Shown here: positions 29,374-60,741 of the stretch, in pieces
Position numbering within the stretch: position 1 is the stretch's first letter
How the letters are laid out: each line of letters begins with the position of its first letter
Origin: an uncultured Nitrospiraceae bacterium
Lineage (GTDB): Bacteria; Nitrospirota; Thermodesulfovibrionia; Thermodesulfovibrionales; Dissulfurispiraceae
Assembly: GCA_903822005.1 (NCBI GenBank)
Contig: CAIJNL010000045.1
Coordinates: 1-64,000 of the forward strand
DNA length: 64,000 bases
Direction: 5' to 3'
The notes under the pieces: generated by a model
The model's input: the letters and a program-made list of their open reading frames with translations, nothing else
Database searches by the model: none
Told to the model about the DNA's origin: nothing
Position numbers and translations under genes: made by a program

Positions 29374-30429
29374 CTAATCCCCCGGATACCAAATGGGCCT
29401 GCTGAACTTCAGGCAACAGGTATCGCCCTCCGCGAAATGAGTGGACCGCCTGCCCTTCTGCACGCGGACCTCAGTCCCGCCGACCATTATGCGATAGTCT
29501 ATGATCTCTCCCAGATAGACCTTTCTCTTCACAATTGCCTTTACCCCGCCCGATTTTACCAGATCGACCTCTGATGGCCTGCATGCGAGCGTAAGACGGT
29601 CTGAGCTCACGCCGTCAGGCAACGTCTTGCTCACCGGCCCCGAGTCCTCTACTCCTTCAATATATACCGAGCCCTTTTTAACGACAACAGGCAGGAAATT
29701 GGAGAGCCCTATAAAACTGAATATAAACCTGTTCGCCGGTTTAGTATAAATATTAAGGGGTGTATCTATCTGCTGGGCAACGCCATCGCGCATTACGAGT
29801 ATCCTGTCCGAAAGCGCCATGGCCTCAGACTGGTCATGAGTAACAAAAACAATCGTGAAACCGAATTTCCGCTGGAGGTCCTTTATCTCAAACCTCATCT
29901 CTTCGCGCAGCTTTGGATCGAGATTGGAGAGCGGCTCATCCAGCAGCATCACAGCCGGATTGATCGCAATAGCCCTGGCCAAAGCTATCCTCTGTTTCTG
30001 TCCGCTCGAAAGCTCGTTCGGATAGGCGTTCTCGTATCTTGCCAGACCGGTATGCAGTATCGCGCTTTTTGTGCGCTCACCTATCTCGGCCCGCGAAAGA
30101 CCCCTTATCTGGAGCGGAAAAGCTACATTATTAAAGACATTCAGGTGAGGCCAGACCGCAAAGGCCTGAAAGACCATCCCGAAATTCCGTTTTTCAGGCG
30201 GAAGATAATACCCTTTGTGGCTCGATGAAAACAGCTGTTCACCGACCGAGATCTCGCCTTCGTCGAGGTCCTCGAAGCCAGCCAGCATCCTGAGCGTGGT
30301 TGTCTTGCCGCAGCCAGATGGGCCAAGCATCGAAAAACATTCGCCTTTTTCGATTTCGATGCTCAGGTCGTTGACGGCCACCACACTGCCGAAACGCTTT
30401 GTTATATTCTGAAGTTTAACGTATGACAT
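29374..30429 (-). CDS. ABC transporter ATP-binding protein (second copy in the operon)
   Basis: A 351-residue ATPase of the iron/polyamine/phosphonate-importer type. Walker A is GPSGCGKTT, the Q loop is in FQAFAVWPHL, the signature is LSSGQK rather than LSGGQ, Walker B is VMLLDEPLSNLD and the switch His is in VTHDQ. A TOBE-like regulatory domain follows (about 240-350). It ends the transport operon, 2 bp after the permease. It is a distinct protein from the first ATPase (32126-33235) and may have evolved to serve as its partner. Confidence 0.92.
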   Translation of the reverse strand: MSYVKLQNITKRFGSVVAVNDLSIEIEKGECFSMLGPSGCGKTTTLRMLAGFEDLDEGEISVGEQLFSSSHKGYYLPPEKRNFGMVFQAFAVWPHLNVFNNVAFPLQIRGLSRAEIGERTKSAILHTGLARYENAYPNELSSGQKQRIALARAIAINPAVMLLDEPLSNLDPKLREEMRFEIKDLQRKFGFTIVFVTHDQSEAMALSDRILVMRDGVAQQIDTPLNIYTKPANRFIFSFIGLSNFLPVVVKKGSVYIEGVEDSGPVSKTLPDGVSSDRLTLACRPSEVDLVKSGGVKAIVKRKVYLGEIIDYRIMVGGTEVRVQKGRRSTHFAEGDTCCLKFSRPIWYPGD

Positions 30430-30431
30430 GA

Positions 30432-32126
30432 TTAGACCCCCTCCACGTTCGAGCGCGTTATCCGCTTGATCACAAGCTGGCCGACCACGATGATAACGAG
30501 CGCAATCGATGCAAGCGCCGCGGCATATACGGTCTCCCCATCTTCGTTAAGCGTATAGATGGCAACACCGATAGTCCGTGTTGTCGGACCGTAGAGGAGC
30601 ACCGAGGTGGTAAGTTCCCGGAGGGCGGGCAGAAAGATAAGGAAGAAAGCGGCCACCATGCCGGGCTTTATCAGGGGGATGACAATGTCCTTTAAGGCCT
30701 GCCAATGCGTTGCTCCGCAGGCCCGCGCGGCCTCCTCGAGAGAGTCATGCACCTGTTCGAGAGCAGCCGAATTGGACTTGAGCGAAAAGGCCATATAACG
30801 CGCCACATACGCGACGAAGATGATCCAGGCAGTATTGTAAAGATTGATCCCGAATTTGCCGCTCCACATCAGGATAACGCCCAGCGCTATAACCGTGCCC
30901 GGCAAAGAAAATGGCAGCACGCCAAGGAATTCGAGAATAAACTTGCCCCTGACCTTCATCTTGACTATGACGTAGGATATAAGAGTTCCTACCAGCATCG
31001 TCACGAACGCGGCGGCCAGCGACAGGTAGAAGCTGTTCCAGATGGCATCCTTCGTCATCTTCCAGTCAAAGAGGATGTACGTCAGGTTATCGAGCGTCAT
31101 GTTTTCCAGATTGAACTCGAGCCCGTAGGTCTTCAGTGAACCGACCATAAAGATAGTCACTGTCGGCAGGATGACGGTAATTGCTATATACAGTATGCTC
31201 AGAACAAGCAGAGGCATCTTGAGACCCCGCAGCTTGAGCAGCGTGGGCCGCATGCTCTTGCCGGCAATGACCTGGAAACGGCCTGCCTTGAGTATGAAGC
31301 TCTGGGCGTACAGAATGAGGCCAGCGGAAATCACCAGTATGGACGAGAGAATGGTGCCTGTCCTTATGGCATCAAAGCTCCCTGCGCTCTGATAGATTCG
31401 TTCGTAAATCTTGGTCGGTATGTTGTATATGCCGACCTCGGTCCCCAGGATAGCGGGCACGCCGAAATGCGCGAGTGAATAAAGGGCCACGAGCAGGGCA
31501 CCCGCAACGATACTCGGCAGCATGAGCGGAAGCGTGATCTTGCGGGTGATGGTGAGAAGTCCGGCGCCCGATATACGCGCGGACTCCTCGAGGGTCGGGT
31601 CCATGCGTTCAAGTGCGCCAGAGACCTGGATGAAGACAAACGGGAAAAGATACATGGTCTCGACAGCAATGATCCCGATCAGGCCATAGATATCAAATGG
31701 AGAGTCTTCGAGGCCGAAGGTATTCATCAAAAATTTGTTGACATACCCCGAACGCGGAGAGAGCAGCATCTTCCAGGCCAGAGCGCCTATGAAAGAAGGC
31801 AGCATGAACGGGATGAGGAAGAGGAGCTTCATCGTGTTTTTAAACGGCAGATCGGTGCGCGATACGAGCCAGGCAAAGAAAACTCCGATTATGGTGCTCA
31901 GGAAGGTAACCCCGCCCGCAATTACAAGAGAATTTTTGAGGGCCTCGTAAGTGTCCGGTTCGCTCAGCACCATTACAATATCTTTTATGTTGAGCTGACC
32001 GTCCACAAAAAGGGCCGTCCAGACAATGAGCAGCACCGGGACCGCCACTACCACAACGAGTATCAGAACTGACAGGGCAAGCAGCAATTCTGCGATGCCC
32101 ACCGATTTTATATATCTTCCCAACAT
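30432..32126 (-). CDS. ABC transporter permease, fused two-domain type
   Basis: From ATG 32126 the protein has 564 residues with about 12 membrane helices. Two permease halves each carry an EAA-type loop (EESARISGAGLLTITRKITLPLM about 200-220 and EEAARACGATHWQALKDIVIPL about 495-515). This fused layout is known from FbpB-like and aminoethylphosphonate importers. The ATG overlaps the stop of the upstream ATPase as TAATG, so I prefer it to the earlier Met at 32171. Confidence 0.92.
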   Translation of the reverse strand: MLGRYIKSVGIAELLLALSVLILVVVVAVPVLLIVWTALFVDGQLNIKDIVMVLSEPDTYEALKNSLVIAGGVTFLSTIIGVFFAWLVSRTDLPFKNTMKLLFLIPFMLPSFIGALAWKMLLSPRSGYVNKFLMNTFGLEDSPFDIYGLIGIIAVETMYLFPFVFIQVSGALERMDPTLEESARISGAGLLTITRKITLPLMLPSIVAGALLVALYSLAHFGVPAILGTEVGIYNIPTKIYERIYQSAGSFDAIRTGTILSSILVISAGLILYAQSFILKAGRFQVIAGKSMRPTLLKLRGLKMPLLVLSILYIAITVILPTVTIFMVGSLKTYGLEFNLENMTLDNLTYILFDWKMTKDAIWNSFYLSLAAAFVTMLVGTLISYVIVKMKVRGKFILEFLGVLPFSLPGTVIALGVILMWSGKFGINLYNTAWIIFVAYVARYMAFSLKSNSAALEQVHDSLEEAARACGATHWQALKDIVIPLIKPGMVAAFFLIFLPALRELTTSVLLYGPTTRTIGVAIYTLNEDGETVYAAALASIALVIIVVGQLVIKRITRSNVEGV

Positions 32127-33235
32127 TACGAGACCCCTTCCCCGGCATCTACTTCCTGCCGCGCAAACCATTTCATATCGAGAAACCGGAGTCCGATCTT
32201 GTCTCCTTCAGCATAAATACGGTTCTCGGCAAGGGCCTCCTGTATGTCCTGCTGCACCCTGATCTCGGTCTCGCCGACGGCTATGCGGTAGTCTATTGTC
32301 GAGCCGAGATAAACAGCGCGTTTCAGCAGACCGCGGAGATGAGTTTCGTTTGTGGAAAGCTGGATGTCCTGAGGCCGGCAGCCTGCAACAAGGCTGCCCT
32401 CCCTAAGCGCATCTGTCTGATCTTTCGGCACAGGATATTCCATGACCGAGTCGCTGCCACGCACATAGACCTTTCCGTCACGATAGTCGAGCGGGATAAA
32501 ATTCGAGACGCCCATAAACTTGAAGACAAAACTGTCCGCCGGTTTTTCATAGATCTCATCAGGAGGGCCGATCTGGCGAATGTTCCCGTTTTTATCCATG
32601 ACCGCAACGCGGTCGGAGATCGCAAGCGCCACCTCCTGGTCATGCGTTACATACAGTATTGTTACTCCAGTGTTCTTCTGCAGTTCCTTCATCTCAAACC
32701 GCATCTCTTCCCTAAGGTTCGCGTCAAGGTTCGAGAGCGGCTCATCAAGCAGCATTATTGCCGGCCCAGAGACAAGCGCGCGGGCAAGAGCGACACGCTG
32801 CTGCTGCCCGCCCGAAAGCTGGAAAGGCAGGCGCTTTTCGAGGGTCTGGAGGTTCACCATCGCAATGCTCTTCATGGTGCGGCCATCTGCCTCTTCCTTC
32901 TGTACCTTCTGCATCTTGAGAGGGTATACAACATTTTCATATACGGTCTTATGAGGCCAGACCGCGTAATCCTGGAAGACAACGCCTATACTCCGCTTCT
33001 CGGGAGGCAGAAATACATGCTCGTCCGGGCAGCAGACAAGGGTATCACCTATTATGATCTTCCCGCTGTCCGGCTGTTCGAAACCGGCGATGAGCCTCAG
33101 GATTACTGTCTTGCCGCATCCGGACGGCCCGAGAAATGTGAAACATTCCCCGTCGTTTATGGTTATGCTCAGGTCCTTTATAACCGGATGTTTGTCATAT
33201 GACTTGCTGACCTTTTCAAGCCTAACGCTTGCCAT
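32126..33235 (-). CDS. ABC transporter ATP-binding protein (first copy)
   Basis: A 369-residue ATPase. Walker A is GPSGCGKTV, the signature is LSGGQQQRVALARAL, Walker B is IMLLDEPLSNLD and the switch is VTHDQ, followed by a TOBE-like domain (about 240-360). This type powers importers of iron(III), spermidine/putrescine or phosphonate. It sits between the binding protein and the permease, overlapping the latter by 1 bp. Confidence 0.93.
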   Translation of the reverse strand: MASVRLEKVSKSYDKHPVIKDLSITINDGECFTFLGPSGCGKTVILRLIAGFEQPDSGKIIIGDTLVCCPDEHVFLPPEKRSIGVVFQDYAVWPHKTVYENVVYPLKMQKVQKEEADGRTMKSIAMVNLQTLEKRLPFQLSGGQQQRVALARALVSGPAIMLLDEPLSNLDANLREEMRFEMKELQKNTGVTILYVTHDQEVALAISDRVAVMDKNGNIRQIGPPDEIYEKPADSFVFKFMGVSNFIPLDYRDGKVYVRGSDSVMEYPVPKDQTDALREGSLVAGCRPQDIQLSTNETHLRGLLKRAVYLGSTIDYRIAVGETEIRVQQDIQEALAENRIYAEGDKIGLRFLDMKWFARQEVDAGEGVS

Positions 33236-33263
33236 GGAGCCCCCCCTGACATACCATCATTAT

Positions 33264-34256
33264 TTACTTCACCTTCATGACAGCATCAAATTTCTTTATG
33301 ATGGCCGCTTTGTCTTTCATGGTTTTGAGGTAGTCAAGTTTCATGGCGCGTTTTACAGCTTCGTCAGGAGTCGGAAGACCATATTTTTTCAGGACCGGAA
33401 CGTCCGAACGGATCGGGAGCGTGCCGGATGCCGCGATGATGGTCTGGCCCTCTTTTGAAAGCAGAAAGTCGATGAACTTCTTTGCAGCGCCCAGGTTCGG
33501 GGTGCCCTTTATAATCGCCACAGGGCTCGGGATTACAAGCATCTCCTTCGGATATACAAAGCCGATATTGGCGCCTTTCTGCATCTTGTCAATGACGATG
33601 TAATCAACGCCGAGCGCAGCCTTCAGGTCTCCGGATGCGGTGTCATCAACGACCTGGCCCGAGCCCTGTCCTATCCTTGCACCATTGGCCCTGAGCTTCT
33701 GGAAATAGTCCCACCCGAGGCTGTTTGCCTGCATCGCAATACTCATAAAGGCGGTCCCTGAAAGCGCGGGATTAGCTATGCCATAGCCTCCTTTGAAGCG
33801 CGCGTCGAGCAGGTCCTGCCAGGTTTTGGGCGGCACGGTCACCTTTTTAGTGTTATAGACTATGCCGAGGGTCCCGAGACGGGCCGGTGTAAAGTAGCCG
33901 TCAGGGTCTTTCACTGTGCTCTTTATATGCTTTGACTCGGGAGATACATATTTTTCGAAAAACCCCTCACCCTTGAGCTGGTAGAAATCGGGCACCTCGC
34001 TGTGCCACAGCACGTCCACGGTCATCCTGCCTGACTGGCGTTCTGCTGCTATCTTGGCCATAAGCTTGCCAGCCCCTGCCGAATAGTAGTCAAAGGCGAT
34101 GCCGGGATACTTTTTCACAAAGGCATCACGCAGCTTGCCGATAAGGCTCTCTTTCATGGAGGTGTATACCATCAGCTTTTCAGCCGCGAACGAAACCGAT
34201 CCGATACTGCAGAATACAAATGACAGCACGATCAGGAAAACCAGCGCTTTTTTCAT
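33264..34256 (-). CDS. ABC transporter substrate-binding protein (iron/phosphonate-type)
   Basis: The ATG at 34256 (MKKALVFLIVLSFVFC) with AAGGAGAAGAGAG upstream gives a 330-residue protein with a signal peptide cut near SFAAEK. The mature part starts LMVYTSMKESLIGKLRDAF and is related to FbpA-like and 2-aminoethylphosphonate binding proteins. The paired Tyr that holds iron in FbpA is not evident near residues 190-220, so iron is less likely than an organic or phosphonate ligand. The ligand is not determined by sequence. Confidence 0.85.
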   Translation of the reverse strand: MKKALVFLIVLSFVFCSIGSVSFAAEKLMVYTSMKESLIGKLRDAFVKKYPGIAFDYYSAGAGKLMAKIAAERQSGRMTVDVLWHSEVPDFYQLKGEGFFEKYVSPESKHIKSTVKDPDGYFTPARLGTLGIVYNTKKVTVPPKTWQDLLDARFKGGYGIANPALSGTAFMSIAMQANSLGWDYFQKLRANGARIGQGSGQVVDDTASGDLKAALGVDYIVIDKMQKGANIGFVYPKEMLVIPSPVAIIKGTPNLGAAKKFIDFLLSKEGQTIIAASGTLPIRSDVPVLKKYGLPTPDEAVKRAMKLDYLKTMKDKAAIIKKFDAVMKVK

Positions 34257-34320
34257 CTCTCTTCTCCTTTTTATATGCATGATTTTAATTATTACGAAAC
34301 CTTCATCCCGCCCGGTCTTT

Positions 34321-35307
34321 CTATTTCCGGAAAGCGGCAGGGATCCCGAATTTGGCGATGGGATCATCGTTAGGACCGAGACCCATGAGCTTAACAAGTT
34401 CTATCCGTATCACGTCCCATTTTTCACGCGCCAGCTCTTTTCCAGGCGTGGTCTTTGCTTCTTCAAAGAGGCGCTGAAATACATAATAAACAACATGCCC
34501 TTCCTCAACAGTCGTCTTTGCTCCCCAGCGCTGCTTCGCTATGCCGCGCCACTTGCTGCCGTCCGGCACTACCGATTCAGGCACAAATTGGGATATCAGG
34601 TCCGCATCATGGGCAAAAAGCGCAATATTGCCCTCCGGCTCCGGAAATACCGTCTGCCATGCGCCATTGGCGCCGCCGGCCTTGTCGACCATGTCCCTGA
34701 AATACCAGTAGCCTGTAGAATGCCCCAGTATGGCGGCCTGGATCGTATCTATCTCCGCCTTCTTAAAACCGGCCTTCTTCAGTATCTCTCCAGCCTTTAA
34801 GGCGCCTGTTATATGATGGATAAGCGCGAGATTGCCTCCAACCTGCTGCGACTTCAGTAACTTTTCATCGGTCCAGAAGCGTGCGGAACCCTTCAGGAAT
34901 CCTGACTTTCGCAGGCCAATAGTCATTTCGGCTGACTGCGAAAAGAGGACCGGATCTGTCAGCAACGCCTTCTTGTCCTGCTTGGTGATATCATGGAGAA
35001 GGTCCGTTGCTATGGCCAGTCTCCTCTCTTTGAGAGAGAGCTTGAGATCAACCGCCATCCGGTATGAGAGGGCCGAACATACCCGCACATGCAGAATGTC
35101 CTGGGCCGGGTCCTTAAGTTGACCAGCGTAAGTGCTGATCATCACATCCATCAACCCCTGCAGGTCAGGGAATTCCTTAAGATACGCCTTTTCATATCCT
35201 GCGTACGGCTCGGGCAGATCGTATGCATCCTGCACAGCCGCTTCTGATGCGCCAACTGCGGCCATCACAAACAGAAGAGCAATAATCAGTAATGATTTCA
35301 CACGCAT
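34321..35307 (-). CDS. Secreted HD-domain protein in the ABC-transport operon
   Basis: A 328-residue protein with a signal peptide (VKSLLIIALLFVMAAVGASEA). It shows the metal-binding pattern of HD hydrolases: HVRVCSAL (His), DLLHDI (His-Asp), IHHITGALKAGEIL (His), GHSTGYWYF and FAHDADLIS (Asp). It should act in the periplasm on a phosphate-like substrate, but its substrate is unknown. The ATG at 35307 is only 1 bp from the GGGG site, whereas the GTG at 35301 has a better spacing and may be the true start. It leads the operon behind a sigma-54 promoter. Confidence 0.75.
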   Translation of the reverse strand: MRVKSLLIIALLFVMAAVGASEAAVQDAYDLPEPYAGYEKAYLKEFPDLQGLMDVMISTYAGQLKDPAQDILHVRVCSALSYRMAVDLKLSLKERRLAIATDLLHDITKQDKKALLTDPVLFSQSAEMTIGLRKSGFLKGSARFWTDEKLLKSQQVGGNLALIHHITGALKAGEILKKAGFKKAEIDTIQAAILGHSTGYWYFRDMVDKAGGANGAWQTVFPEPEGNIALFAHDADLISQFVPESVVPDGSKWRGIAKQRWGAKTTVEEGHVVYYVFQRLFEEAKTTPGKELAREKWDVIRIELVKLMGLGPNDDPIAKFGIPAAFRK

Positions 35308-35381
35308 TCCCCTTTCGTAAAGAGAGTTTGTACTTTATTCAGGCGGATTGAAGCCGGTCAGCCTGTTAACAGGAAATATAC

Positions 35382-35397
35382 AGCATTAAATGTACCA
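35382..35397 (-). promoter_or_regulatory. Sigma-54 (-24/-12) promoter of the HD/ABC-transport operon
   Basis: Read on the minus strand, TGGTAC-ATTTAA-TGCT has GG and GC separated by exactly 10 bp and matches the -24/-12 consensus at most positions. It would start transcription near 35371, 64 bp upstream of the HD gene. The NtrC-type regulator gene ends just upstream. Confidence 0.7.
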
Positions 35398-35405
35398 TGG
35401 CGATT

Positions 35406-35417
35406 GACCGCACGGTC
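35406..35417. promoter_or_regulatory. 12-bp palindrome GACCGCACGGTC near the sigma-54 promoter
   Basis: GACCG and CGGTC arms surround a CA centre, about 40 bp upstream of the predicted start. It may be a regulator site; it is closer than usual for a sigma-54 enhancer, so its role is uncertain. Confidence 0.35.
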
Positions 35418-35430
35418 TGAAAAGAAAAAA

Positions 35431-35442
35431 CAATGTTTTCAA
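35431..35442 (+). promoter_or_regulatory. CAATGTTTTCAA box upstream of the HD/ABC promoter
   Basis: The same 12-mer found at the sigma-54 promoters near 58888 and 60634 lies 33 bp upstream of the -24 element here, in the opposite orientation relative to transcription. It could be a DNA-bending or regulator site. The match to the IHF consensus is only partial. Confidence 0.4.
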
Positions 35443-35466
35443 TGGTAAACAGAGAAGGGGCGAAAA

Positions 35467-35492
35467 ATATCAGCTATTGACCTGCCTGATAT
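35467..35492. promoter_or_regulatory. Candidate enhancer ATATCAG-N12-CTGATAT
   Basis: A 7-bp inverted repeat with a 12-bp spacer, centred about 108 bp upstream of the predicted start, which is a usual distance for a sigma-54 activator site. Its half-sites equal the inner half-sites of the double palindromes at 54835, 58772 and 60519. Confidence 0.45.
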
Positions 35493-35512
35493 GAAGCAGC
35501 AGCTGTTGGATA

Positions 35513-36883
35513 TCAAGCACCCGCAAACGGGATGCCGAATTTTTCCATCCGGTAGCGCAGGGTATTCCGGGTGATCTTAAGCAGATTTGCGGCCTTGACC
35601 TGATTGTTTCCGGTCATCTGCAGCGCGGCAACTATAAGCCCTTTTTCGACCTCTTCCAGTGAAATGCCCTCGGGCGGGATCAGAGAGCAGTATTTATGAT
35701 GTGGGTCCAAAGGCGCTCCGGCCCCCAGCAATATGTCTCCATGGCTTATCTCACTGCCCTTGCAGAGGATAACAGCACGTTCGACAATATTCTGAAATTC
35801 CCGTACATTACCGGGCCAGACATAGGAGACCAGCATATTGAGAGCATCTTCAGAAAAGCCCTGAACGGACTTTCCCATTTCCTCGTTGAAGCGCCTGAGA
35901 AAATAGACCGCAAGAAGAGATATGTCGTCACGGCGCTCGCGCAGCGGGGGGATATGAATCGGGAAAACGCTCAGCCTGTAGAAAAGGTCATCGCGAAAAC
36001 GGCCTTCCTGCACCAGCGCGCTTATATTCTTGTTCGTGGCGGCCATAATGCGCACATCGACCTCGATGGTCTTTGTGCCGCCAAGGCGCTCAAAGCTCCT
36101 CTCCTGCAAGACCCTCAGCAGCTTGGCCTGCAGACTATGCGGCATGTCGCCTATCTCGTCAAGAAAGAGCGTGCCATGTTCCGCGATTTCAATCCGGCCC
36201 GGCTTCATATGGTCGGCGCCCGAAAAGGCCCCTTTTTCAAAACCGAAGAGTTCGCTTTCGAGCAATGTCTCAGGAATTGATGCGCAGTTGATTGCGATAA
36301 ACGGCCCGTTGTTCCTTTGCGACGCATGATGTATGGCCCTTGCCAGCAGGTCTTTGCCTGTTCCGCTTTCGCCTGTGATGAGCACCGTGGAATTCGTCCC
36401 GGCCACCCGGCCCGCAAGCGCATAAATTTCCCGCATGTTCGGAGAGTTACCGACAAAATCCTCAAAGGTCGCGCGCCTCCTCACTTCCTCCCTCAGGTAC
36501 GTATTTTCTTTTCTAAGGCTTCCATAACTAAGGGCCTTTGAGACGAGGATGCGGATCTCCTCCCGGTCAAACGGTTTGGTGATATAATCGAAAGCCCCTT
36601 CCTTCATCGCCTCGACAGCGGTCTCAACAGACCCGAAGGCGGTAACCACTATCACAGGAATATCGGGAGATACCTTGCGCAGTTTCTTCATAAGGGTGAG
36701 TCCGTCCATGGGCGCCATCTTCAGGTCGGTAACAATGAGCGAATAGCTGTTTTTCTCGCAGAGCGACAAGGCCTTAAGTCCGTCCTCAGCCGTGTCGATA
36801 CGGTAGCCATCCTCCGAAAGCATGATCTCCAGTATGCGCCGCATCTTGGCTTCATCTTCGACTATAAGTATTCTGGGGTTCAT
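35513..36883 (-). CDS. NtrC-family sigma-54 response regulator
   Basis: A 456-residue protein with receiver domain (1-120, phospho-Asp in VTDLKM), AAA+ domain (about 140-375) and Fis-type helix-turn-helix (about 415-455, NNQVKAANLLKITRNTLRYRM). Walker A is GESGTGKD, the sigma-54 contact loop is GAFSGA, and Walker B is LFLDEIGD. It overlaps the kinase by 4 bp and so forms a cognate pair. The next operon downstream begins with a sigma-54 promoter and is the likely target. Confidence 0.95.
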   Translation of the reverse strand: MNPRILIVEDEAKMRRILEIMLSEDGYRIDTAEDGLKALSLCEKNSYSLIVTDLKMAPMDGLTLMKKLRKVSPDIPVIVVTAFGSVETAVEAMKEGAFDYITKPFDREEIRILVSKALSYGSLRKENTYLREEVRRRATFEDFVGNSPNMREIYALAGRVAGTNSTVLITGESGTGKDLLARAIHHASQRNNGPFIAINCASIPETLLESELFGFEKGAFSGADHMKPGRIEIAEHGTLFLDEIGDMPHSLQAKLLRVLQERSFERLGGTKTIEVDVRIMAATNKNISALVQEGRFRDDLFYRLSVFPIHIPPLRERRDDISLLAVYFLRRFNEEMGKSVQGFSEDALNMLVSYVWPGNVREFQNIVERAVILCKGSEISHGDILLGAGAPLDPHHKYCSLIPPEGISLEEVEKGLIVAALQMTGNNQVKAANLLKITRNTLRYRMEKFGIPFAGA

Positions 36884-38343
36884 CTGGATGGACCGGTTTC
36901 GACAAGCGGGAACAACATCGTCACGCTGGCGCCTCCTTCTTCGCGATTCCCGGCTGTAACGCGCCCGTTATGGCTTTCGACTATATTTCTCACTATTGAG
37001 AGCCCCAGCCCCGTGCCGTCTTTTTTAGTCGTGAAAAAAGGTTCGAATATCTTGTCCATCCCTGCCTCGTCGATCCCCGGCCCATTATCGGAAACACGGA
37101 CAGCGACCCATGAGCCATCTTTGCTGAAAGTCTGAATATCGACTTCCCCTCCATGTTCCGCAGCTTCGCAGGCATTCATGACAACATTGAGCAGCGCCCT
37201 CAGGACAAGATCGCGGTCTGCCCTGACCTCTGGCAGTCCCTCAGCCAGGAGAAGCCTCAGGGTTATTTTACCTTTTTCCGCCGCCGTTTTTTCCCATATC
37301 GTCCGGCTGTCCCTTATCAGGGCATTCAGATCAACAGGCACCAGTTCCCTCATGCGCGGCTGAGCATAGTTCAGGATGTCCATCACCGTATGGTTCAGCT
37401 TGTCCGTCTCTTCGACTATAAAGCGTCCAACCTCTTCCTTGATCGCGAGCGGCGTCTTCCCGTCAACAATGATCTGCGCCGAACCCCGTATTATGCCCAG
37501 CGGATTTTTTATCTCGTGCGCCACTCGGGCCGAAAGCTCGCCGAGCGCGGCAAGTTTCTGTTTCTGGGCCAGCTCTTCGAATGTTTCCCTGAGTTTCTCC
37601 TTGCTCTCGCTGAGAGAGTGCGCCATGCGGTTAAAGGAATCGGCCATCTCTCCGAACTCGTCCGGAGACGATACCCTGATCTTCTGCGAGAGGTCTCCTT
37701 CCGATATTGTCCGCATGCTCTTGATGAAGGCCCCTACTGGCTTGGTGATAATGCGCGTCAGGACAAGTGCCACGGCAATGCCGCCTGCGATCGAAAGCAG
37801 TGCGCTCAGAAGCGCGGAGAAGATGTTCGAATAAATCTCGTGCTCTACATTCCCGAGCGAAAATCCGACACGAACAGTGCCCCACTTTTTTGCATCTATC
37901 ATGACCGGCACGGAGATGTCGTTTACCTGCATCTTCAGGGCTTCGCTGTGGTATGTCTGAACAAGGGCCGGGGCCGTATTCACAAGTCCCTTCCGGATAA
38001 TTTCGCCGGGCACATTTAAGTCCTGATCGCCGCCCGCCAGTATATGCCCGTTGTGGTTGGTGAAGATGACATACGCGACATTCTCTTTTTTCAGGAGATT
38101 ATTCACATATTCTTCGAGTGTAGAAAAGTCATGCCTGAGGATGGGATCAACAGAGCCCTGTGCCAGGGTCTGGGTGAGCACCGTGCCTTCTTCACGCACC
38201 TGGGCGTAGTAATCATGCTTCCATTTATAATGCGAGACAAAAGACGAAATTACCGTGGAGATGATAATGACAAAGACAAACGAAAAGACCAGCTTGTTGC
38301 GCAGGCTGAGGCCCTCAAAAAAATGTACCAGCGAGCGTATCAC
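36880..38343 (-). CDS. Membrane sensor histidine kinase
   Basis: A 487-residue kinase with a first TM helix (about 15-36), a periplasmic sensor loop (about 38-165), second TM (about 178-200), HAMP (about 200-252), HisKA with AHEIKNPLGII (phospho-His about residue 280) and a HATPase domain ending with TGLGLSIVRNIVESHNG. It overlaps the regulator gene below and the PhnD-like gene above by 4 bp each. It may sense the state of that binding protein. Confidence 0.94.
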   Translation of the reverse strand: MIRSLVHFFEGLSLRNKLVFSFVFVIIISTVISSFVSHYKWKHDYYAQVREEGTVLTQTLAQGSVDPILRHDFSTLEEYVNNLLKKENVAYVIFTNHNGHILAGGDQDLNVPGEIIRKGLVNTAPALVQTYHSEALKMQVNDISVPVMIDAKKWGTVRVGFSLGNVEHEIYSNIFSALLSALLSIAGGIAVALVLTRIITKPVGAFIKSMRTISEGDLSQKIRVSSPDEFGEMADSFNRMAHSLSESKEKLRETFEELAQKQKLAALGELSARVAHEIKNPLGIIRGSAQIIVDGKTPLAIKEEVGRFIVEETDKLNHTVMDILNYAQPRMRELVPVDLNALIRDSRTIWEKTAAEKGKITLRLLLAEGLPEVRADRDLVLRALLNVVMNACEAAEHGGEVDIQTFSKDGSWVAVRVSDNGPGIDEAGMDKIFEPFFTTKKDGTGLGLSIVRNIVESHNGRVTAGNREEGGASVTMLFPLVETGPSR

Positions 38344-39266
38344 TCTTCAGGCAGCCCTTCGAGAGACCTGGCCAGGGACCGTACAATTTTATAATCGCTG
38401 TCGCGTGCAGCAACAAAACCGTCAACGCCGAACTGTTTCAGCAGCGGTTTAGTGGATGGAGATGATTCGATCCTCAGTAAGGCCTTTCGCAGTTTCGCGA
38501 TTGTCGCTCCTCCCAGACTTTTTCTCGCCACAAAAGGCCCGAGAGGAATAGATTCCGACTTCCATATTATCCTCAAGTGATCAAGTTTGGCATTAAGCGG
38601 GTCAAGCCGGGTGGTCGAAAGCGCGGCGCCGTCAGCAGACCCGCTGTATACGGCAAGCAGGGCCGAGTCATGGTTGCCCGTGTAGATTATTTCCGAGAAA
38701 AATTGTTCAGGCGGGCCGAGACCGCTTCTTTTCATCTGGCGCACCGGCAGGACGAACCCGGTCGTAGAGTTTTTATCGGTAAACGCAAAACGCCTGCCCT
38801 TAAGGCCTGAAAGCGTGCGAATGGCGCTGTCTGTTCTTACAACAATAATGCCGCGGTAATAGGAGCTGCCAAATATCACGCGCCTGACAAGGGGAACGAT
38901 GCCGCCTCCCTCCGCGGCCCTGACATAGGAAAAACTTCCCAGCAGCCCAACATCAACTTTTCCACGGGCAAGGTCGTCAATAACGCCCTGATAATTCGGC
39001 TTGATCTCTATTTCGACAGGCCTGTTCAGCTCCTTCGAGAGATAATCTGCAAGGGGCTGCCATTTCTTGACCATCCTGACTGCATTGTCCTGAGGAACAA
39101 ATCCGATGCGTAAAACATTGCTCCTCTCCGGAATGCTTTCAACACCGGCTGCCCTTCCTTCAGCAGGCATACACAGGAACGTTGCCGCGCAAAAAAAGAT
39201 GAACAGGAACCAGGCCGGCAGAACCTTTATTACACTACTTCTCATGACAGATCTGAGCCTCTCCAA
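38340..39266 (-). CDS. PhnD-like periplasmic binding protein
   Basis: A 308-residue protein with a signal peptide (about 15-40). It has NVLRIGFVPQDNAVRMVKKWQPLADYLS, GKVDVGLLGSFSYVRAAE and TDKNSTTGFVLPVRQM, matching phosphate/phosphite/phosphonate binding proteins of the PhnD type. It has no permease beside it; instead it overlaps a histidine kinase. Such PhnD-kinase-regulator sets are thought to use the binding protein as a ligand sensor. The ligand is not determined. Confidence 0.87.
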   Translation of the reverse strand: MERLRSVMRSSVIKVLPAWFLFIFFCAATFLCMPAEGRAAGVESIPERSNVLRIGFVPQDNAVRMVKKWQPLADYLSKELNRPVEIEIKPNYQGVIDDLARGKVDVGLLGSFSYVRAAEGGGIVPLVRRVIFGSSYYRGIIVVRTDSAIRTLSGLKGRRFAFTDKNSTTGFVLPVRQMKRSGLGPPEQFFSEIIYTGNHDSALLAVYSGSADGAALSTTRLDPLNAKLDHLRIIWKSESIPLGPFVARKSLGGATIAKLRKALLRIESSPSTKPLLKQFGVDGFVAARDSDYKIVRSLARSLEGLPEE

Positions 39267-53269: not shown

Positions 53270-54823
53270 TTGAATCAAGAGATGGAAAACAGGCCCATCA
53301 GTATCCTGCTCGTAGAAGACAGTCCCAATGACGTCTCTCTGTTCAGGGAAATGCTTGCAGATTCTGATAGTGCCCGGTTTGAATTATCCCATTGTAATAC
53401 GCTGAAATGCGCACTTGCACTGCTGGGCAAAGAAAACTTTGACATCATTTTGCTTGACCTTGCACTTCCGGACAGCATAGGACTTGATACCGTAATACGC
53501 ACACTTGCAGCAGCGCCTAAAATACCGATTGTGGTGATGAGCGGTCTTGGTGATGAGGAGCTCGCAGCCCGCGCATTGCACGAAGGCGCGCAGGATTATC
53601 TGGTGAAGGGCCAGGTTGACAGCAATCTTTTGATCAGGGCCATAAGATATGCCATTGAGCGCAAGCGGACGGAAGAGGCCCTGAGGAAAGCGCACGACAG
53701 GCTTGAGCTGCGTGTTCAGGAACGGACAGCGGAGTTGCTGACCGCTAATAAGCAGCTCTTGCTGGAAATAGAAGACCGCAAGAAGGCAGAGGAGGCGCTT
53801 CAGGAGGCGCTTCAGGAGCTGAAACAGTTAAAAAACAAATTGCATGAAGAGAACATCTTCCTTAGAGAAGAGATAAGCCTGATCCACTCACATATGGAAA
53901 TCGTCGGCAACAGTGAATCGATAAGGACCGTCCTGCAGCAGATAGAGCAGGTAGCTCCAACGGACTCTACAGTTTTAATCCAGGGGGATACCGGGACAGG
54001 AAAAGAACTGATAGCTCATGCGATCCATAACCTGAGTGCCCGCAAGGACCGGCTCATTATCAAAGTCAACTGCGCCGCACTGCCGCCTACCCTGATCGAA
54101 AGCGAATTGTTCGGCCGTGAAAAGGGCGCTTTTACCGGCTCTCTGTCAAAACAGATAGGCCGTTTTGAACTTGCGGATTCTTCTACTATTTTCCTGGATG
54201 AGATCGACTCCCTGCCGCTGGAACTCCAGGCCAAGCTGCTTCGGGTACTGGAGAGCGGTGAATTTGAGCGGCTTGGCAGCCCCCGGACAGTAAAAGTGAA
54301 CGTCAGAATTATATCAGCGACGAACCGCGATCTCTCCAGCCTCGTAAGTGAGGGCGGGTTCCGTGAAGACCTTTACTACCGCCTGAATGTCTTTCAGATT
54401 ACTGTGCCGCCTCTTCGTGAGCGGCGCGAGGACATATTGCCGCTTGTATGGTCTTTTATAAAAGAGTTCAGCGAGAGAATGGGCAAACGCATAGAATCAA
54501 TACCACAAAAGTGCGTTGAAGCGCTGCAAGCCTATCCATGGCCCGGCAACGTACGGGAGTTGAAAAATGTTACCGAGCGAGCGATGATCATAGCCACCGG
54601 GCCCGTACTGCATTTTGAGGTACCAAAGATCGCGCAGTCATCTGCGGACCAGTCCGGGACCCTCGAAGAGGTCGAAAAACGGCGGATCATCGAGGCCCTG
54701 AACACCACCGGGTGGCAGGTCAGCGGCAAGGGTGGTGCAGCAGAGATTTTAGGCATAAATCCGAAGACGCTCGAATCGAGGATGCAAAAACTCGGAATTC
54801 AAAGAAATAAGAAAAATGCCTGA
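53270..54823 (+). CDS. Receiver-AAA-Fis sigma-54 activator
   Basis: A 517-residue protein: receiver domain (about 8-130, phospho-Asp 63 in LLDLALPD), a long coiled coil (about 138-205), AAA+ domain (about 212-440) and Fis-type HTH (about 475-513, GKGGAAEILGINPKTLESRM). Walker A is GDTGTGKE and Walker B is IFLDEIDS. The sigma-54 contact loop reads GAFTGS rather than GAFTGA. The start is a TTG with AAAGGA 10 bp upstream; the ATG at 53282 is an alternative. Three identical sigma-54 modules follow at 54820, 58757 and 60504, the first overlapping its own stop codon. Confidence 0.93.
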   Translation: MNQEMENRPISILLVEDSPNDVSLFREMLADSDSARFELSHCNTLKCALALLGKENFDIILLDLALPDSIGLDTVIRTLAAAPKIPIVVMSGLGDEELAARALHEGAQDYLVKGQVDSNLLIRAIRYAIERKRTEEALRKAHDRLELRVQERTAELLTANKQLLLEIEDRKKAEEALQEALQELKQLKNKLHEENIFLREEISLIHSHMEIVGNSESIRTVLQQIEQVAPTDSTVLIQGDTGTGKELIAHAIHNLSARKDRLIIKVNCAALPPTLIESELFGREKGAFTGSLSKQIGRFELADSSTIFLDEIDSLPLELQAKLLRVLESGEFERLGSPRTVKVNVRIISATNRDLSSLVSEGGFREDLYYRLNVFQITVPPLRERREDILPLVWSFIKEFSERMGKRIESIPQKCVEALQAYPWPGNVRELKNVTERAMIIATGPVLHFEVPKIAQSSADQSGTLEEVEKRRIIEALNTTGWQVSGKGGAAEILGINPKTLESRMQKLGIQRNKKNA

Positions 54824-54850
54824 TATTTCAGGAGCCTCCTGATATATCAG
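54820..54850. promoter_or_regulatory. Upstream activating site 1 (31-bp double palindrome)
   Basis: Two 12-bp palindromes of the form CTGATATATCAG (first one with a single change, TTTCAG) are joined by GAGCCTC, giving a 31-bp inverted repeat centred at 54835. It starts at the stop codon of the activator gene and lies 115 bp upstream of the -24 element. Copies 2 and 3 are almost identical. Confidence 0.8.
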
Positions 54851-54903
54851 AACGCAGTGCCTGCTGCAATGTCCTTCGTCCAGTGCAGTTTTCGCTGAAA
54901 TCT

Positions 54904-54915
54904 TAATGTTTTCAA
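54904..54915 (+). promoter_or_regulatory. TAATGTTTTCAA box 1
   Basis: This 12-mer lies 34 bp upstream of the -24 element; the same box (CAATGTTTTCAA) is at the same place in modules 2 and 3. It is followed by a loosely conserved ATAGNNGCT stretch. It may help bend the DNA between enhancer and promoter. Confidence 0.5.
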
Positions 54916-54949
54916 GACCATAGAAGCTCCTCTCCGGCACAATCGGCCC

Positions 54950-54965
54950 TGGCACACATCCTGCT
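54950..54965 (+). promoter_or_regulatory. Sigma-54 promoter 1
   Basis: TGGCACACATCCTGCT matches the -24/-12 consensus (GG and GC 10 bp apart). The predicted start is near 54976, 80 bp before the first gene of unit 1 (55056). Confidence 0.85.
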
Positions 54966-55055
54966 TTTCAATACTATGGCGAACACCGGAGCACATTCAT
55001 CTTTGGTGCAATGGGCATCGGAGCGCGTATTAACAATTATCGCAAGGAGAGAGAA

Positions 55056-58748: not shown

Positions 58749-58795
58749 GCCGCCTTCTGATATATCAGGAGACTCCTGACATATCAGAAGGCGGC
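58749..58795. promoter_or_regulatory. Upstream activating site 2 within a 47-bp palindrome
   Basis: The central 31 bp (58757-58787) hold CTGATATATCAG, GAGACTC and CTGACATATCAG. In this copy GCCGCCTTC/GAAGGCGGC arms extend the symmetry to 47 bp. It lies just after the Nramp-related stop and 116 bp upstream of promoter 2, so the RNA copy could also act as a hairpin terminator of unit 1. Confidence 0.8.
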
Positions 58796-58840
58796 ATCTC
58801 TCATAGCGTCATCCAGGCAGCGCAATTCTCGCCAATACTT

Positions 58841-58852
58841 CAATGTTTTCAA
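58841..58852 (+). promoter_or_regulatory. CAATGTTTTCAA box 2
   Basis: The box is 35 bp upstream of the -24 element of promoter 2, with ATAGGTGCTTC after it, as in modules 1 and 3. Confidence 0.5.
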
Positions 58853-58887
58853 TATCATAGGTGCTTCAGTCCTGGTTACAATCCTCC

Positions 58888-58903
58888 TGGCACACATCCT
58901 GCT
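58888..58903 (+). promoter_or_regulatory. Sigma-54 promoter 2
   Basis: TGGCACACATCCTGCT is identical to promoter 1. The predicted start is near 58914, 96 bp before the DUF3309 gene. Confidence 0.85.
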
Positions 58904-59009
58904 CTTAAATAAAGCAACAGATATCAAAGCCTGTTCGCTTTTGATGCGATGAATGCTTAAAGAAAGCCTTGCATTTTTCGCCGGGCAAATAAGATACGGG
59001 AGGAAAAAC

Positions 59010-60503: not shown

Positions 60504-60534
60504 CTGATATATCAGGAGACTCCTGACATATCAG
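60504..60534. promoter_or_regulatory. Upstream activating site 3 (31-bp double palindrome)
   Basis: The sequence CTGATATATCAG, GAGACTC, CTGACATATCAG is identical to copy 2 over all 31 bp. Its centre (60519) is 115 bp upstream of the -24 element of promoter 3. The flanking stretch from 60341 contains no gene. Confidence 0.82.
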
Positions 60535-60587
60535 AACAAGCCACCCTTAAAAGTAACATTCCCCCGACGGAGTTTTCCCTATTATGT

Positions 60588-60599
60588 CAATGTTTTCAA
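60588..60599 (+). promoter_or_regulatory. CAATGTTTTCAA box 3
   Basis: The box is 34 bp upstream of the -24 element of promoter 3 and is followed by ATTATAGGAGCTTCC, closely matching the corresponding part of module 2. Confidence 0.5.
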
Positions 60600-60633
60600 C
60601 ATTATAGGAGCTTCCGTTCGCGGTCACAAGTCC

Positions 60634-60649
60634 TGGCACGCATCCTGCT
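60634..60649 (+). promoter_or_regulatory. Sigma-54 promoter 3
   Basis: TGGCACGCATCCTGCT differs from promoters 1 and 2 at one position. The predicted start is near 60660, 82 bp before the first gene of unit 3. Confidence 0.85.
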
Positions 60650-60741
60650 TTTAAATACATAAACAAACAGGGTGGAAAGCTCCCTAAGGCGGGCCCGAAT
60701 AAATGACCTTGATACTGAACATGCAAAAGGTGAGAGGAGAA

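Follow-up and report, generated by a model that had tools for sequence, protein, structure and literature searches.

Gene organization of the locus

The window analysed here is a stretch of DNA of 64,000 nucleotides, in which a 205-bp gap (35308-35512) separates the response regulator gene from the gene 34321-35307, all on the minus strand. In the order of transcription, genes for a PhnD/PtxB/ArrX-like binding protein, a histidine kinase and the response regulator precede the gap, and those for an exported HD-like protein, an ABC binding protein, an ATPase, a fused permease and a further ATPase follow it (Table 1). Among 396 genomes of the phylum, an orthologue of the operon was found in one further genome (G019, from another genus; locus L033, record JAAYUK010000185.1, a Nitrospiraceae MAG), where the eight genes are arranged in the same order. 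Further orthologues were found neither among plasmids nor among viral contigs, and among the named genomes there was one, again G019.

The designation "HD" for the first gene of the operon is weak, as the match to Pfam HD stays under the cut-off (E = 0.19). The orthologue retains the H and HD residues, and the predicted structure is all-helical with low confidence (pLDDT 56). In the importer (29374-33235) a single fused permease gene is flanked on both sides by ATPase genes. For the binding-protein ORF 33264-34397, the TTG start given in the ORF list creates a 77-bp overlap with the HD gene (34321-34397), and the true start is probably located further downstream. On the other side of the gap, a PhnD-family protein with PtxB and ArrX as nearest relatives precedes a kinase and a sigma-54 regulator, which corresponds to an AioXSR-like system.

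Table 1. Position of genes and sequence elements at the HD/ABC locus.
Feature	Position	Strand	Evidence
Sigma-54 -24/-12 element TGGTACATTTAATGCT	35382..35397	-	GG-N10-GC; L033 has TGGTATGTTCTATGCA at the corresponding position of its gap
12-mer CAATGTTTTCAA	35431..35442	+ (inverted relative to the promoter)	Exact match; 3 exact copies in the genome; absent from G019
Possible IHF-type bending site containing the 12-mer	35426..35457	+	Matrix score; core with 3 mismatches to WATCAANNNNTTR; IHF subunit genes
ATATCAG-N12-CTGATAT inverted repeat, proposed as operator for the 35513 regulator	35467..35492	.	Shuffle test; arrangement not kept in G019
NtrC-type response regulator (receiver, sigma-54 AAA+, Fis-type HTH)	35513..36883	-	Pfam; G019 orthologue 78% identical, with identical recognition helix
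Sensor histidine kinase with periplasmic sCache_3 domain	36880..38343	-	Pfam
PhnD/PtxB/ArrX-family periplasmic binding protein, probably the sensor subunit	38340..39266	-	Phosphonate-bd E 3.5e-71; PDB: PtxB 4e-30, ArrX 2e-28
Exported HD-like protein, encoded first in the operon	34321..35307	-	Sub-threshold Pfam HD (E 0.19); G019 copy 74% identical
ABC importer: binding protein, ATPase, fused permease, second ATPase	29374..34397	-	Pfam, NCBIfam; identical order in L033

The initial annotation had described a -24/-12 element, an inverted 12-mer box and the inverted repeat ATATCAG-N12-CTGATAT upstream of the HD gene, and all of them were recovered. The -24/-12 element has the form GG-N10-GC and reads on the minus strand from 35397 down to 35382, the box CAATGTTTTCAA lies on the plus strand and thus opposite to the promoter, and the repeat at 35467-35492 consists of perfect 7-bp arms with a spacer of 12 bp. 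The place of the box with 33 bp between it and the -24/-12 element was also correct, but its exact occurrence in the three modules at 54-60 kb was so only in part: it is identical at 58841 and 60588, whereas the sequence at 54904 is TAATGTTTTCAA. A perfect 12-bp palindrome, GACCG-CA-CGGTC, is located immediately above the -24 at 35405-35416. It is missing in G019, and 5-base arms of this kind are expected by chance in a stretch of such length.

A probable sigma-54 promoter upstream of the HD gene

The sigma-54 control region proposed initially for the HD/ABC operon is supported by a -24/-12 element that is kept in the orthologous operon, by the presence of rpoN and by an NtrC-type regulator encoded directly upstream. 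RpoN is encoded in both genomes (PF04552 above the cut-off). Both the window element, in which GG and GC are kept, and the G019 element differ from the sigma-54 consensus at three positions, and 33 positions of the window match this consensus as well as TGGTACATTTAATGCT or better. Using a sigma-54 matrix derived from the modules, the window element reaches a score of 11.8, which is equalled at 7 of 127,970 window positions, and the G019 element a score of 4.4, which is equalled at 90 positions. Therefore, it is the conservation of the position and not the score that bears the sigma-54 case. The suggested alignment of homologous upstream regions, for which one relative (G019) was available, revealed GG-N10-GC at the matching place, whereas box and repeat are not kept. 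A scan for sigma-70 promoters remained at chance level, with 1 promoter found and 0.7 expected. Judged from the sequence, the gap most likely carries an ordinary sigma-54 promoter for an uptake/hydrolase operon, which would be fired by the adjacent sensor-regulator genes.

Comparison with the 53270-type modules

The HD promoter had been regarded as a fourth control region related to three modules at 54-60 kb. These are indeed present in the window at a distance of some 20 kb from the HD promoter (54820-54990, 58757-58920 and 60504-60665), but the genome holds five of them, the others being located at C36:107976 and C26:67425. The module palindrome TGATATATCAGGAGNCTCCTGAYATATCA was found in 5 of the 100 relatives searched, with the genome of the window counted. 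Altogether, 18 modules in five genomes of one order (the three above and L035, L036, L038, L041-L043, L045, L046, L048, L052, L055, L056, L107 and L109) have a 31-bp palindrome that starts 127-130 bp from the -24 and an IHF-like site (scored over 32 bp) that begins 50-52 bp above the -24. The IHF consensus is WATCAANNNNTTR, and in most modules the IHF-like site has a core resembling WWTCAANNNNWTA, which is near this consensus. The layout is unusually rigid, and the modules apparently form the regulon of the 53270-type activator. The palindrome can be tied to this type of activator because in both G014 and G071 a palindrome has a related activator as its neighbour. In G001, a member of the same genus (L043, L051), six module palindromes were found and the search for the 53270 activator recovered no complete orthologue. 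As the DNA beside two of these palindromes resembles only the 3' end of the 53270 gene, this suggests decay of the 53270-type gene in G001.

The HD promoter fails every feature common to the 18 modules, and a fourth copy was rejected on geometry as well as on sequence. The modules contain two CTGATATATCAG arms separated by 7 bp, whereas the HD promoter has 7-bp half arms with a 12-bp spacer, and its best 12-mer differs from the module arm by 4 mismatches. The distance from the repeat to the -24 is about 95 bp (35492 to 35397) and not 127-130 bp as in 18 of 18 modules. Furthermore, box and IHF-like site have the opposite orientation, with a score of 10.05 for the latter in comparison to 14-36 for the module sites (two modules fall below 10 in leave-one-out scoring), and the -24 reads TGGTAC instead of TGGCAY. 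A 53270-type activator co-occurs in G000, yet the orthologous HD promoter in G019 is found without one. What the HD promoter does have in common with these modules (54820, 58757, 60504; L035, L036) are the TGATAT half-sites, CAATGTTTTCAA and the -24/-12 element.

The 12-mer box as a candidate IHF-type site

The exact 12-mer CAATGTTTTCAA occurs three times in the genome of 3.23 Mb. An exact match of at least 12 bases to the three modules was obtained in 15 of 3000 shuffles of the stretch; when the window was cut into 2726 overlapping tiles of 115 bp, 27 of them (about 1%) contained one. The box alone is therefore weak evidence. If the box is ranked as an IHF-type site with a matrix built without the modules of the window, it is among the best 17 of 127,938 window positions, which corresponds to a chance of roughly 2% for the stretch. 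The IHF core WATCAANNNNTTR is matched with 3 mismatches in the orientation of the box and with 2 mismatches elsewhere, the latter being the case in one third of random 69-bp pieces. The genome encodes an IHF-alpha protein above the curated cut-off, and the protein nearest to IHF-beta stays below its cut-off. As the two further modules of the genome lack CAATGTTTTCAA, the 12-mer is one flank variant of an IHF-like site and no fixed code word. In our view, the stretch around CAATGTTTTCAA is probably an IHF-type bending site.

The inverted repeat and the reader of TGATAT-type sites

The inner arms of the module palindrome recur as the arms of the inverted repeat, and the repeat is stronger evidence of likeness than the box. 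None of 20,000 shuffles contained arms drawn from CTGATATATCAG, and any 7-bp repeat with a spacer of up to 20 bp was present in 7% of the shuffles; as the motif was chosen after the data had been seen, the half-site statistics are moderate evidence only. A second repeat with the same arms is located in the genome inside a coding frame resembling dihydropteroate synthase, where its occurrence is presumably due to chance.

In the G019 gap, a single TTGATATTTCAG is located about 24 bp above the -24, and thus this palindrome is nearer to the -24 than the repeat of the window. The best match to CTGATATATCAG in the G019 HD promoter has 2 mismatches (shuffle p 0.0038). A search in 31 genomes of the family for TGATATWTCA 8-38 bp above a -24/-12 element returned only the HD promoter of G019 and one place in G004 (L112 1501-1539). 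G019 has no orthologue of the 53270 activator (best match 46%) and no module palindrome. The recognition helix RNTLRYRMEKFGI is identical in the 35513 regulator and its G019 orthologue and differs from that of the 53270 activator (PKTLESRMQKLGI). As G019 has no activator of the 53270 type, TGATAT-type sites of the two species are most simply explained as targets of the local regulator, and the 35513 regulator itself may read such a site.

The initial annotation had also considered that both activators may share an ancestor and part of their DNA code. The 35513 and 53270 activators are 44% identical. As to a special common ancestry of the two within the NtrC family, the two pairs stand apart with weak deep support in a tree of 39 activators, and a union of both pairs was not rejected (AU p 0.377). 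With regard to the code, the TGATAT half-sites have some statistical support, and we give a partly shared code a low but not negligible probability. The same probability is assigned to the idea that two distant NtrC-type activators read overlapping TGATAT half-sites and are distinguished mainly by the arrangement of these sites, i.e., by the spacer and by a full or half palindrome. Regulators with similar C-termini in genus g6 provided no informative promoters.

A model for the regulation of the operon

We favor, with some confidence, the explanation that the XSR-like neighbouring regulator switches the HD/ABC operon by means of the sigma-54 promoter in the gap. As we infer from gene order and domain content, the PhnD/ArrX-type binding protein (38340-39266) together with the histidine kinase (36880-38343) would sense a ligand, and the kinase would phosphorylate the adjacent NtrC-type regulator (35513-36883). 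The regulator would then bind above the -24, most likely to the ATATCAG-N12-CTGATAT repeat with its centre about 83 bp above the -24, and would activate the sigma-54 RNA polymerase at TGGTACATTTAATGCT, whereby the CAATGTTTTCAA stretch between operator and promoter would probably act as an IHF-type bending site. Points against this explanation are that the operon is present in two genomes only, that G019 has neither repeat nor box, that its TGATAT-type site is a single palindrome nearer to the -24, that the -24/-12 elements of both genomes and the IHF core deviate from their consensus, and that the operator motif was selected with the data already in view.

It is also possible, but clearly less probable, that the 35513 regulator drives the sigma-54 promoter from an operator elsewhere in the gap and that box and repeat resemble the modules by coincidence. 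The loss of both elements in G019, the frequency of module matches of at least 12 bases in the window tiles and the different recognition helices of the two activators would fit, whereas the failure to obtain arms of the module palindrome by shuffling and the TGATAT-type palindrome in the G019 gap argue against a coincidence. Double control by the 53270 activator, as raised initially, or a site that is a degenerate module of its regulon appears very unlikely to us: even if the half-sites correspond to the inner arms of the module palindrome and both activators are encoded in one genome, none of the shared module features is found, and double control is disfavored because G019 retains operon and promoter without an orthologue of this activator and without any module.

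An equally small probability is assigned to transcription of the HD operon that starts at a sigma-70 promoter or continues from the regulator operon by read-through, with an accidental match to -24/-12. All genes are located on one strand and 33 window positions match the sigma-54 consensus equally or better, but G019 keeps the -24/-12 element beside a sigma-54 activator and the sigma-70 scan did not exceed chance. That the repeat serves the regulator gene as an intrinsic terminator and not as an operator is hardly credible. Although the regulator gene ends 20 bp before the repeat and the second arm is followed by a run of T, the fold reaches only -5.7 kcal/mol (z -0.21), with two G-C pairs in the stem and a loop of 12 bases, and a terminator scan found none, so that this candidate was rejected.

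Relation to known systems

The preferred reading, control by the neighbouring sensor-regulator genes, has a counterpart in AioXSR and ArxXSR (PMC5908839, PMC5335332), where a PhnD-related binding protein, a kinase and an AtoC/NtrC-type regulator are encoded in a row by targets with a putative RpoN promoter. In AioXSR, the family-related binding protein, the kinase and the AtoC-type regulator control this putative RpoN promoter (PMC5908839), and at our locus a PhnD-family periplasmic protein, a kinase and an AtoC-type regulator are likewise consecutive beside the target genes. The target differs, being arsenite oxidase there and an exported HD-like protein with an ABC importer here. An AioR-type operator (GTT...AAC) is absent from the HD promoter, with 4 mismatches for the best match in either gap (window and G019). 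The best solved relatives of the sensor candidate are ArrX and PtxB (E 2e-28 and 4e-30); PtxB serves transport, in contrast to the 38340-39266 protein as a sensor candidate. ArrR of ArrXSR is a CitB-like regulator without AAA+ domain (PMC5908839), whereas the 35513 regulator has a sigma-54 AAA+ domain. A further likeness exists to the IHF-assisted sigma-54 promoters of CbrB, in which activator sites, an IHF-type site and GG-N10-GC follow each other and the activator subsites may vary in spacing (PMC6296734); at the HD promoter, however, the IHF site is a candidate that is not kept in the relative.

Taken together, our analysis assigns an uncharacterised uptake/hydrolase operon to a sensor system that resembles AioXSR in its architecture, and it provides a sensor candidate of the PhnD/ArrX type and a candidate operator. 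If the sharing of half-sites is real, it would be a natural case for how cells with dozens of sigma-54 activators avoid crossing of their operators, and the arrangement instead of the letters would insulate the XSR-like circuit from the 53270 circuit.
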